Assembly (NCBI GenBank): GCA_030427585.1 | Contig: JAUIBW010000007.1 | Span: 1-64,000, forward strand | Source: Bacteroidia bacterium | GTDB lineage: Bacteria; Bacteroidota; Bacteroidia; Flavobacteriales; Flavobacteriaceae | DNA length: 64,000 nt | Direction: 5' to 3' | The notes under the pieces: generated by a model | The model's database searches: none | What the model was told of the DNA's origin: nothing | The model's input: only the letters and a program-made list of their open reading frames with translations | Program-made: the position numbers and the translations under genes | Shown: positions 8,692-62,633 of the stretch, one piece after another | Layout of the letters: each line of letters starts with the position of its first letter | Numbering within the stretch: the first letter of the stretch is position 1

Positions 8692-8925
8692 GCTATACTT
8701 ACGTTTTAAGTTAGCCCCAAATACTATGTTTTTGAGGTAAAAGAAATTTTTTTCCAAAAATACAAATCATAAAGTAATATACAAAAACTGCTATTTGAGT
8801 TTTAGATGGTGGGTATATTACCAAAAGCGGTAATTGTGATGATTATTCTATAATTCCATTATACAAACCTAGAGACATGGATAATTCAGATAATGCAAAT
8901 CAATAAATTCTAATTTCAGAATATA

Positions 8926-8961
8926 AAAAATGCCTTAAAAATTATTCTAAGGCATTTTTTG
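8926..8961. terminator. bidirectional intrinsic terminator-like hairpin
   Basis: AAAAAATGCCTTA-N10-TAAGGCATTTTTT. Confidence 0.7.
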
Positions 8962-9323
8962 GGCTAATTCGTTATTAAATAATTTAACGATTAAAAAATA
9001 TAATAACGAAGCTAGCCACCTTCTACTATACAATTACTAATTTTAGTAATTGTGCAGCCATCAAGATGATGTCTTACGACCTTTTTAAGAAATTTCATCT
9101 TTCTCTTTCCTTCTGCTTTTGTTCATGTTTGCTTTTTATGTAGATGCTATAAAAACAAAAGGGTTGCGCTATACGCTTAAAAAAATGTAATCGTTGTCTG
9201 CCTCCAGTTTAAAAACACCAAATCTTACTAGATAAAGTGCAGATATTTGTTGTTAATAATGATTTTAGAATCTGTATCCCAACTACAAAAAGAAATAGTA
9301 CTTTAGCAAAAAGTTTATTATCA

Positions 9324-10407: not shown

Positions 10408-10487
10408 TTATACCTTAAAAGCAACCTTATCTGTATTAGAGCATCTACCTAATGGATGTATATACGATCTCTCAAAACCCCAAGAAA

Positions 10488-10904
10488 ATGAGAAGGATAA
10501 AAACAGTTTTAATATTTTTTATAGCAGTTATCTTAACTGGATGTTCTGACGACGATGATGGAACGAGTTTCTTTTATGAATTAGCTACTGTACAGGAAGC
10601 TTCACTGCCCGATCAGTTTAATCGAGAAGAAATCTATACCATTACTGTATCTTACTACAGACCAACAAATTGTCACTCTTTTGCAGGATTTGATTATAAC
10701 AGATTAGGAAATGAACGAACGGTATCTGTAGTCAATTTGGTAGTTAATGAAGGTAATTGTAAAGATTTAGAAACAACAGATCTAGTTGAGGTATCTTTTG
10801 ATTTTTTGGTAGGAAATGAAGATTCTTACATCTTTAGATTCTGGCAAGGAAGAGACGAAAATGGAAATAATCAATTTTTAACCGTAGAAGTACCTGTATT
10901 ATAA
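10488..10904 (+). CDS. hypothetical lipoprotein
   Basis: Lipobox VILTGC after signal peptide; start trimmed to MRRIKTV. Confidence 0.7.
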   Translation: MRRIKTVLIFFIAVILTGCSDDDDGTSFFYELATVQEASLPDQFNREEIYTITVSYYRPTNCHSFAGFDYNRLGNERTVSVVNLVVNEGNCKDLETTDLVEVSFDFLVGNEDSYIFRFWQGRDENGNNQFLTVEVPVL

Positions 10905-10956: not shown

Positions 10957-11508
10957 GTGGGTTTAGACCAACTCATAAAAAGATGTAAGAAAAAAAATGC
11001 TCAGGCACAAGAACAATTGTATAGATTATACAGCAGTAAATTGTTTTCGATTTGCTTAAAATATTCTAGTGATGTTTCAAGTGCAGAAGATACCTTGCAA
11101 GATGCTTTTATAACTATTTTTGATAAAATTGGTCAATATAAAAATCAAGGCTCTTTTGAAGGGTGGATAAAACGAGTAACTATTAATACAGCATTACAGA
11201 AATATCGAAAACAAAAAGTTTTTGATATCATTAATGAAGAACAGATTGAAGAAGTTGAAGTTGAAGTCGATGAAGAAGAGATCTCTATGGATTATCTTTT
11301 AGAGATTATACAGCAATTACCCGATCGATATCGATTAGTGTTTAATCTATATGTGTTAGATGGTTATTCCCATAAAGAAGTTTCAGAAATGTTAGAAATA
11401 TCTGTAGGAACCTCTAAATCTAATCTGGCAAGAGCAAGAAATATTTTGAAAGAAAAAATACAAACCAACCAAGAGCTTTATGTTCGACCAATTGAAGAAC
11501 GAAGATGA
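10957..11508 (+). CDS. ECF RNA polymerase sigma factor
   Basis: Sigma70 r2/r4 regions: SSAEDTLQDAFITIFDKIGQYKNQGSFEGWIKRVTINTA, DGYSHKEVSEMLEISVGTSKSNLARAR; GTG start. Confidence 0.92.
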   Translation: MGLDQLIKRCKKKNAQAQEQLYRLYSSKLFSICLKYSSDVSSAEDTLQDAFITIFDKIGQYKNQGSFEGWIKRVTINTALQKYRKQKVFDIINEEQIEEVEVEVDEEEISMDYLLEIIQQLPDRYRLVFNLYVLDGYSHKEVSEMLEISVGTSKSNLARARNILKEKIQTNQELYVRPIEERR

Positions 11509-13106
11509 GTGATAAAAAAAATATAGATCGTTTATTTCAGGAAAAATTCAAAGATTTTGAAGTCATTCCCGATGAAATAGTATGGGAAAAAATAAAGGCA
11601 CATCAAAATAAAAACAAAAAAAGAGTTTTTCTGATCCCATTTTGGTATAGAGTTGCTGGGGTAGCAGCATTAATTGCCCTTATATTAGGTATAAGCTCTT
11701 TACCTTTTAGTACTAGCATAGAACAAAATGATATCATCACCGATTCTGATACTCAAAATACAATTGAACATACAAAAACGACACCTAACAAGCAGGTCAA
11801 ACCGTCTTTAGAAGATGTTATAGTCACTACAGAAGAAAAAGAAGCCAACCCGACTAATCAAAAAACAAAAAACACTAATCTTGATGAGGATAATGATGCT
11901 GGTCAACATAATTATTTTGAGCCTTCTGCTACAAAAGAAAATGCGGTTGCTAAAACTCTGGAGCAAGTGCCTTCGCAACCCAAAAACAGTGATAAATTAA
12001 GCCCTGCTCCCCATTCTGCAACTAAAAACAGAATTGCAAATCATACTGAATCAAATAATAGCAATACGGCACAAATCCCTTCTAATCCAAAAGAAGGGCC
12101 TGGTACTACACAAGATAATACCATCGAAAAAACCACTATAGCTGACCAAAAGGACAAAAAATCCATTTCAGAAAAAGAACCTCCTTTTTTTGTAACACCA
12201 AATGAGAAAAGTAACACAACCACTCAAGGTTTAGCCGAAAATAGTATTGATAATGATACAAAGAACAAAACCCCCGAAGAAGATGTTGAGAATACAAATG
12301 ACAACGGTAAGAAATCCATCTTTGATGTTATACATAAAGATGGTAATGAAGAAATAGCTAAAGAATCCTCATCAACCAAAAAATGGAATGTTGCGCCTAA
12401 TGTCGCCCCTGTATATTATAGTTCTATCGGAAGCGGATCTTCGATTGATGCCCAATTTGCAGATAATAACAAAAACGGACAAGTAAATATGAGTTATGGT
12501 GTGCATGTTTCTTATGCCATAAACAAAAGATTTAGTGTGCGTTCTGGAGTAAATAAAGTAGATCTTAGTTATAATACCAAAGGTATTGGTTTTTCTCCAT
12601 CAGCAGTTGGGCAAAACCTAGAAAATGTAAACTATAACGCTACTGCCGGAGCCATTTTGATTTCTGATATCGGAAACGTAAGAAATACTGATATCGGGTC
12701 TGAATTCTCTGATCTTAACAGAAATGCGATAGAACAAAAACAAAATGTAGGATTACTTAATCAAAGTATTGCCTATTTAGAAGTTCCGGTTGAAATGAAA
12801 TATGCTTTGGTTGATAAAAAAATTGGAGTAAATATGATTGGAGGTATCAGTACATTATTCTTACAGGGCAACGAAATTTCTATAGAGGCTGGTGATTTTG
12901 AAACTCCTATAGGAGAAGCCAATAATCTTAATGATGTAAGTTTTAGTGGTAATATAGGGATAGGTGTCGATTATAATATATCAGATCAATTTGAGATTAA
13001 TCTCGAGCCTATTTTTAAGTATCAGTTTAATGCCTTTAATGACAATGCCAATAATTTTAAGCCTTATTATTTTGGTGTATATACTGGAGTAAGTATCAAA
13101 TTTTAA
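11505..13106 (+). CDS. predicted dual-membrane-spanning anti-sigma-like protein (N-terminal cytoplasmic domain, single TM, disordered linker, C-terminal outer-membrane beta-barrel)
   Basis: Overlaps the sigma gene stop by 4 nt; TM RVAGVAALIALILGISSLPF; about 225-aa polar linker; beta-barrel-like end ...YYFGVYTGVSIKF. Confidence 0.75.
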   Translation: MSDKKNIDRLFQEKFKDFEVIPDEIVWEKIKAHQNKNKKRVFLIPFWYRVAGVAALIALILGISSLPFSTSIEQNDIITDSDTQNTIEHTKTTPNKQVKPSLEDVIVTTEEKEANPTNQKTKNTNLDEDNDAGQHNYFEPSATKENAVAKTLEQVPSQPKNSDKLSPAPHSATKNRIANHTESNNSNTAQIPSNPKEGPGTTQDNTIEKTTIADQKDKKSISEKEPPFFVTPNEKSNTTTQGLAENSIDNDTKNKTPEEDVENTNDNGKKSIFDVIHKDGNEEIAKESSSTKKWNVAPNVAPVYYSSIGSGSSIDAQFADNNKNGQVNMSYGVHVSYAINKRFSVRSGVNKVDLSYNTKGIGFSPSAVGQNLENVNYNATAGAILISDIGNVRNTDIGSEFSDLNRNAIEQKQNVGLLNQSIAYLEVPVEMKYALVDKKIGVNMIGGISTLFLQGNEISIEAGDFETPIGEANNLNDVSFSGNIGIGVDYNISDQFEINLEPIFKYQFNAFNDNANNFKPYYFGVYTGVSIKF

Positions 13107-13140: not shown

Positions 13141-13328
13141 ATTGCTTTAAAACCCGGCTTATGTATTAAAAAATCTATTACAGTTTCCAACTACTGCAAA
13201 ATATAGCGCTTCGCTACATTTTTAAGTATAACCATAGCGATGCTATGCTGAAACTAATAAAATGTTATATTTTATGGTAATTGAAACCTTCATAACGAAG
13301 TTTTAATACATAAGCCGGGTAAAGCAAT
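13141..13328. repeat. ~188-bp imperfect palindrome, MITE-like
   Basis: Terminal arms ATTGCTTTAAAACCCGGCTTATGTATTAAAA / TTTTAATACATAAGCCGGGTAAAGCAAT are complementary apart from a 3-nt indel; internal arms also pair. Confidence 0.75.
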
Positions 13329-13335
13329 GATGAAC

Positions 13336-13363
13336 AAAGCCGTTTCTGGGGAGAAACGGCTTT
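13336..13363. terminator. hairpin terminator-like
   Basis: AAAGCCGTTTCT-GGGG-AGAAACGGCTTT. Confidence 0.7.
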
Positions 13364-62133: not shown

Positions 62134-62502
62134 TTACTTTTTCTCTAATAAAATCTCTAAACTCTTAGTAATTACATGACATATATCATCTGTTACTATA
62201 ATTGGATCGCTTGTAATTGTTGTGTAACCTGTTTTACTCACCGTAATTACATAAGTACCAGTACGTTCATAAGCTCCAACAAAAATAGTAGTCCCTGATA
62301 TATTCTTAAGGGTTTCTTTATATTCATTATCTGTGGCTACTACAGTAATACCCTCTACCAAAAATCCAGCATCCATAGTATCTTTAATCGTTACTTCTAA
62401 ACCGGGTCTAGCCTCTAGTGTACACAAAACTGGATCTTCAGTCTTATCATCATCATTACAAGCTACACAGAGTAATAATAAAAGTAAAAAAACCTTTTTC
62501 AT
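62134..62502 (-). CDS. lipoprotein with carboxypeptidase-regulatory-like fold
   Basis: LLLCVACNDD lipobox; GTYVITVSKTGYTTITSDPIIV. Confidence 0.65.
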   Translation of the reverse strand: MKKVFLLLLLLCVACNDDDKTEDPVLCTLEARPGLEVTIKDTMDAGFLVEGITVVATDNEYKETLKNISGTTIFVGAYERTGTYVITVSKTGYTTITSDPIIVTDDICHVITKSLEILLEKK

Positions 62503-62633
62503 TTATTTTATACGTTATTGTTTGTACATAAGATGCTTTTAAAAAGCTATGGTTGCGTTTTTTTAACACGCTCTGTACACTATTCATCACAATACATAAA
62601 CCGAAAAAATTACATATTAGTACACCATATAAT

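Follow-up and report, generated by a model that had tools for sequence, protein, structure and literature searches.

In the window (the whole stretch of 64,000 nucleotides that was analysed) an ECF sigma factor gene is found between a gene for a small lipoprotein and a long open reading frame encoding a predicted dual-membrane-spanning anti-sigma (Dma) protein, and an ECF-type promoter motif precedes the three genes (Table 1). The sigma factor was recognized by the Pfam domains Sigma70_r2 (E 8.6e-14) and r4_2 (E 8.2e-17) and by TIGR02937, which scored above its cut-off; the best NCBIfam matches were under their specific cut-offs. A sigma gene and a next ORF overlapping it by 4 nt had been noticed in the original prediction, and the ORF coordinates and the ATGA shared by the two frames agree with this. 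A perfect 20-nt inverted repeat with copies 129 nt apart is located 3' of dma, at 13152-13320, and a related copy (79%) at G000:C41:47660-47821 in the same genome suggests a small repeat element.

Table 1. Features of the sigma-Dma operon and of other sites in the window that carry the promoter motif
Feature	Position	Strand	Basis
Candidate short transcript (about 210 nt)	8915-9134	-	RNA folding, conservation
Hairpin of the transcript; terminator	9017-9004/8974-8962; about 8960-8925	-	
28-aa ORF MKFLKKVVRHHLDGCTITKISNCIVEGG	9012-9098	-	coding constraint
Second exact promoter motif copy, near recA	9141-9167	-	motif search
ECF-type promoter GCAACC-N15-CATCTA, 5' of the lipoprotein-sigma-Dma operon	10421-10447	+	conservation
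Small lipoprotein opening the operon; lipobox LTGC followed by SDDDD, a stretch like an export signal	10488-10904	+	
ECF sigma factor, 183 aa, GTG start	10957-11508	+	Pfam Sigma70_r2, r4_2; TIGR02937
Dma-type dual-membrane-spanning anti-sigma protein (predicted), 533 aa	11505-13106	+	ORF, Pfam, alignment, AlphaFold, Foldseek, hhalign
Cytoplasmic sigma-binding domain (predicted), residues 1-46, helices 7-14 and 24-34	11505-11642	+	conservation, homology
Inner-membrane helix (predicted), residues 47-68	11643-11708	+	hydropathy 2.27 over 19 residues, positive-inside flanks
Disordered periplasmic tether (predicted), residues 71-292, 222 aa	11715-12380	+	pLDDT, length, hypervariability
Conserved island KKSIFDVI, residues 269-276, within the tether just ahead of the barrel	12309-12332	+	
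C-terminal 8-stranded outer-membrane barrel (predicted), residues 293-533	12381-13103	+	Pfam, AlphaFold, Foldseek
Terminator-like hairpin, 3' of the operon	13336-13363	+	
Lipoprotein (CNDDD), candidate regulon member, 28 nt 3' of the CATCTT site	62134-62502	-	
Promoter motif, one mismatch (CATCTT)	62530-62556	-	

The sigma-Dma unit is not a chance arrangement, since it is carried with identical domain order by 31 of 33 genomes of the same genus, the two without a match being incomplete (78% and 89%), and since at all 80 loci in named genomes the sigma gene adjoins dma and both end domains lie in a single ORF. The nearest named-genome homologues are those of Aquimarina megaterium (89%) and A. 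atlantica (86%), which places the window in Aquimarina, and others extend to Aequorivita, Winogradskyella, Algibacter, Zobellia, Leeuwenhoekiella and further genera.

The lipoprotein, promoter and candidate regulon were not covered by the original prediction. An orthologue of the lipoprotein lies directly 5' of the sigma gene at 59 of the 80 named-genome loci; its ORF could start at 10452, the conserved Met being at 10488. The lipobox is followed by SDDDD, resembling the surface-export signals SDDDD of B. fragilis and SDDFE of F. johnsoniae (PMC5080379), and at least two acidic residues occupy positions +2 to +6 in 31 of 34 scored homologues. AlphaFold produced an Ig-like beta-sandwich (pLDDT 90), and a fold search of the PDB with this model gave no match at E<=0.001. 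Identification as NigD was considered and rejected, as the NigD profile aligns with the signal-peptide end only (39 columns). The order lipoprotein-sigma-Dma recurs with unrelated lipoproteins in the genus g22, in a paralogous cluster of this genome (L098:3761-7104, G000:C53), where the first gene is lipoprotein-like, and in Bacteroidales. In g22 the unrelated lipoprotein has about 290 aa, and one that was scanned contains a PrcB_C domain. From this recurrence the lipoprotein would seem to belong to the circuit.

Anatomy of the predicted anti-sigma protein

The long ORF had originally been described as having a charged N-terminus, one transmembrane segment, a linker of about 225 aa and a C-terminal barrel ending in ...GVSIKF. 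The alignment and Pfam agree with this, the linker having 222 aa, and an AlphaFold model, the check proposed at that time, was built on an alignment of 31 homologues and predicted the helices, a disordered linker and an 8-strand barrel. No PDB sequence was matched significantly by the Dma profile.

Residues 1-47 are among the most conserved parts of the alignment (mean majority residue 0.77 in the 31 homologues), and AlphaFold confidence for the two N-terminal helices is low, about 50. The hydrophobic helix, modelled by AlphaFold at 47-64, has a net charge of +4 immediately before it and of -5 immediately after it. The hydrophobic segment in front of the barrel could also be a cleaved signal peptide, the reading which the original prediction had set against its own, in which case the ORF would encode no anti-sigma but a common secreted outer-membrane protein that shares a transcript with the sigma factor. 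We regard this as very improbable, because the 47 residues ahead of the helix are so strongly conserved. The 46 residues which precede the helix are also far beyond the usual n-region, the flanks obey the positive-inside rule, and a second anti-sigma of this genome has the same N-terminus joined to a FecR sensor.

This second protein belongs to a sigma/anti-sigma pair (L097:2302-3988, G000:C2) and combines a Dma-like N-terminus with FecR and FecR_C sensor domains, so that the N-terminal domain behaves as a separable sigma-side module. Class-level homologues (L051, L054-L059, L061) keep the N-terminus and have C-terminal tails of about 180 residues that are not barrels. Taken together with the FecR-bearing protein, these tails indicate a module joined to various sensors. 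Searched against a phylum-wide sample, the N-terminal profile found matches in 62 of 299 genomes.

The tether consists to 75% of N, T, K, E, D, S, Q and P. It ranges from 186 to 291 aa in the 31 homologues and is hypervariable (mean majority residue 0.37), the exception being residues 266-277 around the KKSIFD island, where the mean rises to 0.70. The pLDDT is about 30 up to residue 260, and the chain stays unstructured to about residue 290. Judged from its length, the linker would be long enough for crossing a periplasm.

All Pfam matches of the protein are to outer-membrane barrel families, among them OMP_b-brl_2 (residues 310-508, E 2.6e-8). In the model eight long strands were found at 294-531, with pLDDT mostly 73-92 and about 40 in the loop 391-411, and Foldseek matched them to OmpA, OmpW, OmpX, NspA and similar 8-stranded barrels (TM-score by target 0.57-0.68). 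The length of the domain is near-constant among the homologues (239 +/- 7) and the C-terminal residue is aromatic in nearly all of them. The class-level homologues with their short tails could speak for a conventional single-membrane anti-sigma whose C-terminal beta domain would be periplasmic and respond to a soluble ligand, but the barrel family, the eight modelled strands, the Foldseek matches, the aromatic C-terminus, the near-constant length and the long tether all point to the outer membrane, and we consider the periplasmic alternative highly unlikely.

Dma proteins are defined by an N-terminal anti-sigma domain, a membrane helix, a disordered tether and a C-terminal barrel, with an ECF21 sigma factor adjacent (PMC13088901). 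All four parts of this architecture were found in 11505-13106, the anti-sigma domain by homology only, and at every named locus dma adjoins a gene for an ECF sigma factor. The periplasmic FecR domain that marks FecR-type anti-sigmas had no Pfam match within 11505-13106. For comparison by hhalign, Bacteroidales loci found via NigD-family genes served in place of the B. thetaiotaomicron Dma proteins; several of these loci have a sigma factor and a Dma-like protein adjoining nigD. The Flavobacteriaceae and Bacteroidales nigD-linked families aligned over the N-terminus and helix (54 columns, probability 94) and over the barrel (151 columns, probability 96). Specificity comes from the N-terminal match, the barrel match by itself being weak evidence because such barrels are common. 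As a control, 15 unrelated membrane proteins from the window scored no higher than 3.9 with the N-terminal profile, compared with 4-74 for single Bacteroidales sequences. The proposal of a flavobacterial Dma counterpart thus gained support from the four-part architecture and from the profile matches of both end domains, and on sequence and model we file the protein as a Dma-type anti-sigma representing a new, family-wide flavobacterial branch.

Promoter motif, candidate regulon and a candidate structured transcript

In the upstream regions of the operons both hexamers of GCAACC-N15-CATCTA and their 15-nt spacing are constant and the spacer sequence is variable. The motif was found by a strict or relaxed pattern at 54 of the 59 named loci having the lipoprotein, and also 5' of six g22 operons with their different lipoprotein, four of the sites being exact and two degenerate. 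Exact sites number 3 in the 5.08 Mb of this genome (0 for the reversed control) and about 180 in 55 genomes of the genus (6 for the control; both figures are sums). With one mismatch allowed, the whole-genome search gave 14 sites against 14 for the control, and only exact or relative-supported sites were therefore used.

Nearby ORFs follow 44 unique sites, and 29 of these ORFs have a lipobox, compared with a background of about 10% (binomial p 6e-19, a value which overstates independence because several sites are orthologous). The lipoproteins look to be of many kinds. Ten of the remaining fifteen ORFs form one family of single-helix proteins of about 60 aa, and a 60-aa protein with a single helix, MVTFLIILASLIVFNFVLLKLSMQSVD..., conserved genus-wide, stands behind the third exact site of this genome (L181:1550-1732, G000:C20). 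The CATCTT variant in the window is also present 5' of one lipoprotein-sigma-Dma operon of another genus (L272). The lipoprotein behind it in the window resembles, by eye, one that follows an exact site in L203.

The motif occurs also in genomes of the family that lack a close orthologue, and inspection of such genomes led to the operons of genus g22, with a 47-50% identical sigma factor and its own Dma. The motif may be read by more than one ECF. In g22 (L227, L232 and similar loci) the sites, some of them tandem, are followed about 70-250 nt on by a conserved 34-aa basic ORF, MKEKIELLYNKNRRKTKLKFKKVLRFISEKIIHR. We infer from conservation that the sigma factor studied here reads GCAACC-N15-CATCTA. 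If the motif were read mainly by a different ECF, the lipoprotein link would not be an output of this pair. The genomes do encode many ECF sigma factors (8-22 matches each), and in the paralogous cluster L098 a GCAACC element of similar form is paired with another -10, which is GTCTA-like, suggesting that the promoter specificity of this cluster has diverged. However, in different genera the motif fronts the operon of this very sigma factor, also when the lipoprotein gene at its start is unrelated, and a different main reader appears unlikely. The Aquimarina motif was not recognised 5' of Bacteroidales nigD genes; by eye, a GATGCAAGATT/GTGCAAGATT-like element recurs there (L092, L093, L062).

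The exact site near recA, whose position is conserved within the genus, precedes the candidate short transcript. Folding of 8915-9134 gave a z-score of -7.1, none of 200 shuffles being equally stable, and the hairpin and terminator are conserved in 27 sequences. The 28-aa ORF shows coding constraint, with 833, 983 and 1853 differences at codon positions 1, 2 and 3 and a synonymous fraction of 0.57 (0.20-0.21 in the other frames). An Rfam search of 8915-9134 returned no family above its gathering score. The region 8915-9167 could possibly specify a sigma-driven dual-function RNA or micropeptide. In the genus g25 (L275) a similarly arranged site precedes a different short ORF (...ADGG) and a hairpin, the arms of which differ in sequence yet, by eye, still pair.

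Proposed mechanism and comparison with known systems

We think it likely, from the sequences and the model, that this is a Dma-type sigma/anti-sigma pair in which the freed sigma factor would read GCAACC-N15-CATCTA for envelope genes. The N-terminal 46 residues of Dma would hold the sigma factor at the inner membrane, where the protein would be anchored by its uncleaved helix, and the disordered tether would cross the periplasm to the 8-stranded barrel, the putative sensor in the outer membrane. Misinsertion of the barrel or a disturbance around it would inactivate the anti-sigma, by proteolysis or conformational release, and the sigma factor set free would raise its own lipoprotein-sigma-Dma operon together with a small envelope set, mainly surface lipoproteins, the 60-aa single-helix protein and the structured RNA with its 28-aa peptide.

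Instead of reporting barrel assembly or the state of the outer membrane, the barrel could be the receptor of a specific ligand such as a glycan. A ligand hypothesis exists for Dma2 (PMC13088901) and the barrel loops differ among the aligned homologues, but no PUL genes were seen beside the locus in the stretch read, and the EcfO-Reo pair of P. vulgatus, which has a design like that of Dma (PMC13114119), responds to membrane-active toxins (PMC9308784). By analogy with this response we prefer assembly or membrane-state sensing, and a ligand receptor seems possible though doubtful.

More tentatively, the Dma-coupled ECFs of Flavobacteriaceae might generally command a surface-lipoprotein response, with one promoter, a fixed first lipoprotein gene and a structured RNA/28-aa peptide message. 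If true, an envelope stress system specific to the phylum would exist outside Proteobacteria and would include an RNA or micropeptide arm of its own. The protein itself fits the known Dma kind; what is newer lies in the promoter, its link to lipoproteins and the structured short transcript, all three of them predictions. Sensing of the outer membrane is rarely solved by a single polypeptide that joins the cell surface to a sigma factor, and work on Dma, to date concerned with gut Bacteroides and Phocaeicola, is now extended to a large marine family that is accessible to genetics. The sharp promoter motif and small predicted regulon, mostly absent from Dma studies, make the sensing question testable.

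The envelope ECF sigma factor RpoE acts with the small RNAs MicA and RybB, which are short terminator-ended transcripts behind its promoters. The candidate transcript near recA would be alike in being short, terminator-ended and behind the predicted promoter of an envelope ECF, but it would also encode a conserved 28-aa peptide. In FecR-type cell-surface signalling, with an anti-sigma and a TonB-dependent transducer, the state of the outer membrane is likewise relayed to an ECF sigma factor, and the N-terminal module is common to Dma and the FecR paralogue of this genome. In contrast to that system, receptor and anti-sigma would here be one polypeptide, which lacks a FecR domain, and no TonB-dependent receptor gene was found among the ORFs adjoining the sigma-Dma operon.

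Closer parallels are known from Bacteroidales. The anti-sigma of EcfO-Reo in Phocaeicola vulgatus and Bacteroides fragilis is likewise predicted to reach from the cytoplasm to the surface (PMC13114119, PMC9308784). The P. vulgatus pair controls NigD surface lipoproteins (PMC13114119), the regulon includes surface lipoproteins, and the locus number of nigD (M0N98_03762) adjoins those of the sigma and anti-sigma genes; the lipoprotein of the Aquimarina operon belongs to a different family. Although the Flavobacteriaceae protein is barely alike in sequence to Dma1 and Dma2 of Bacteroides thetaiotaomicron outside the profiles, and the lipoprotein of its operon is not NigD, it has in common with these proteins and their partners Das1 and Das2 the predicted anti-sigma domain, helix, disordered tether and barrel and the adjacent ECF sigma factor, and Dma2 too lies in a three-gene operon (PMC13088901).
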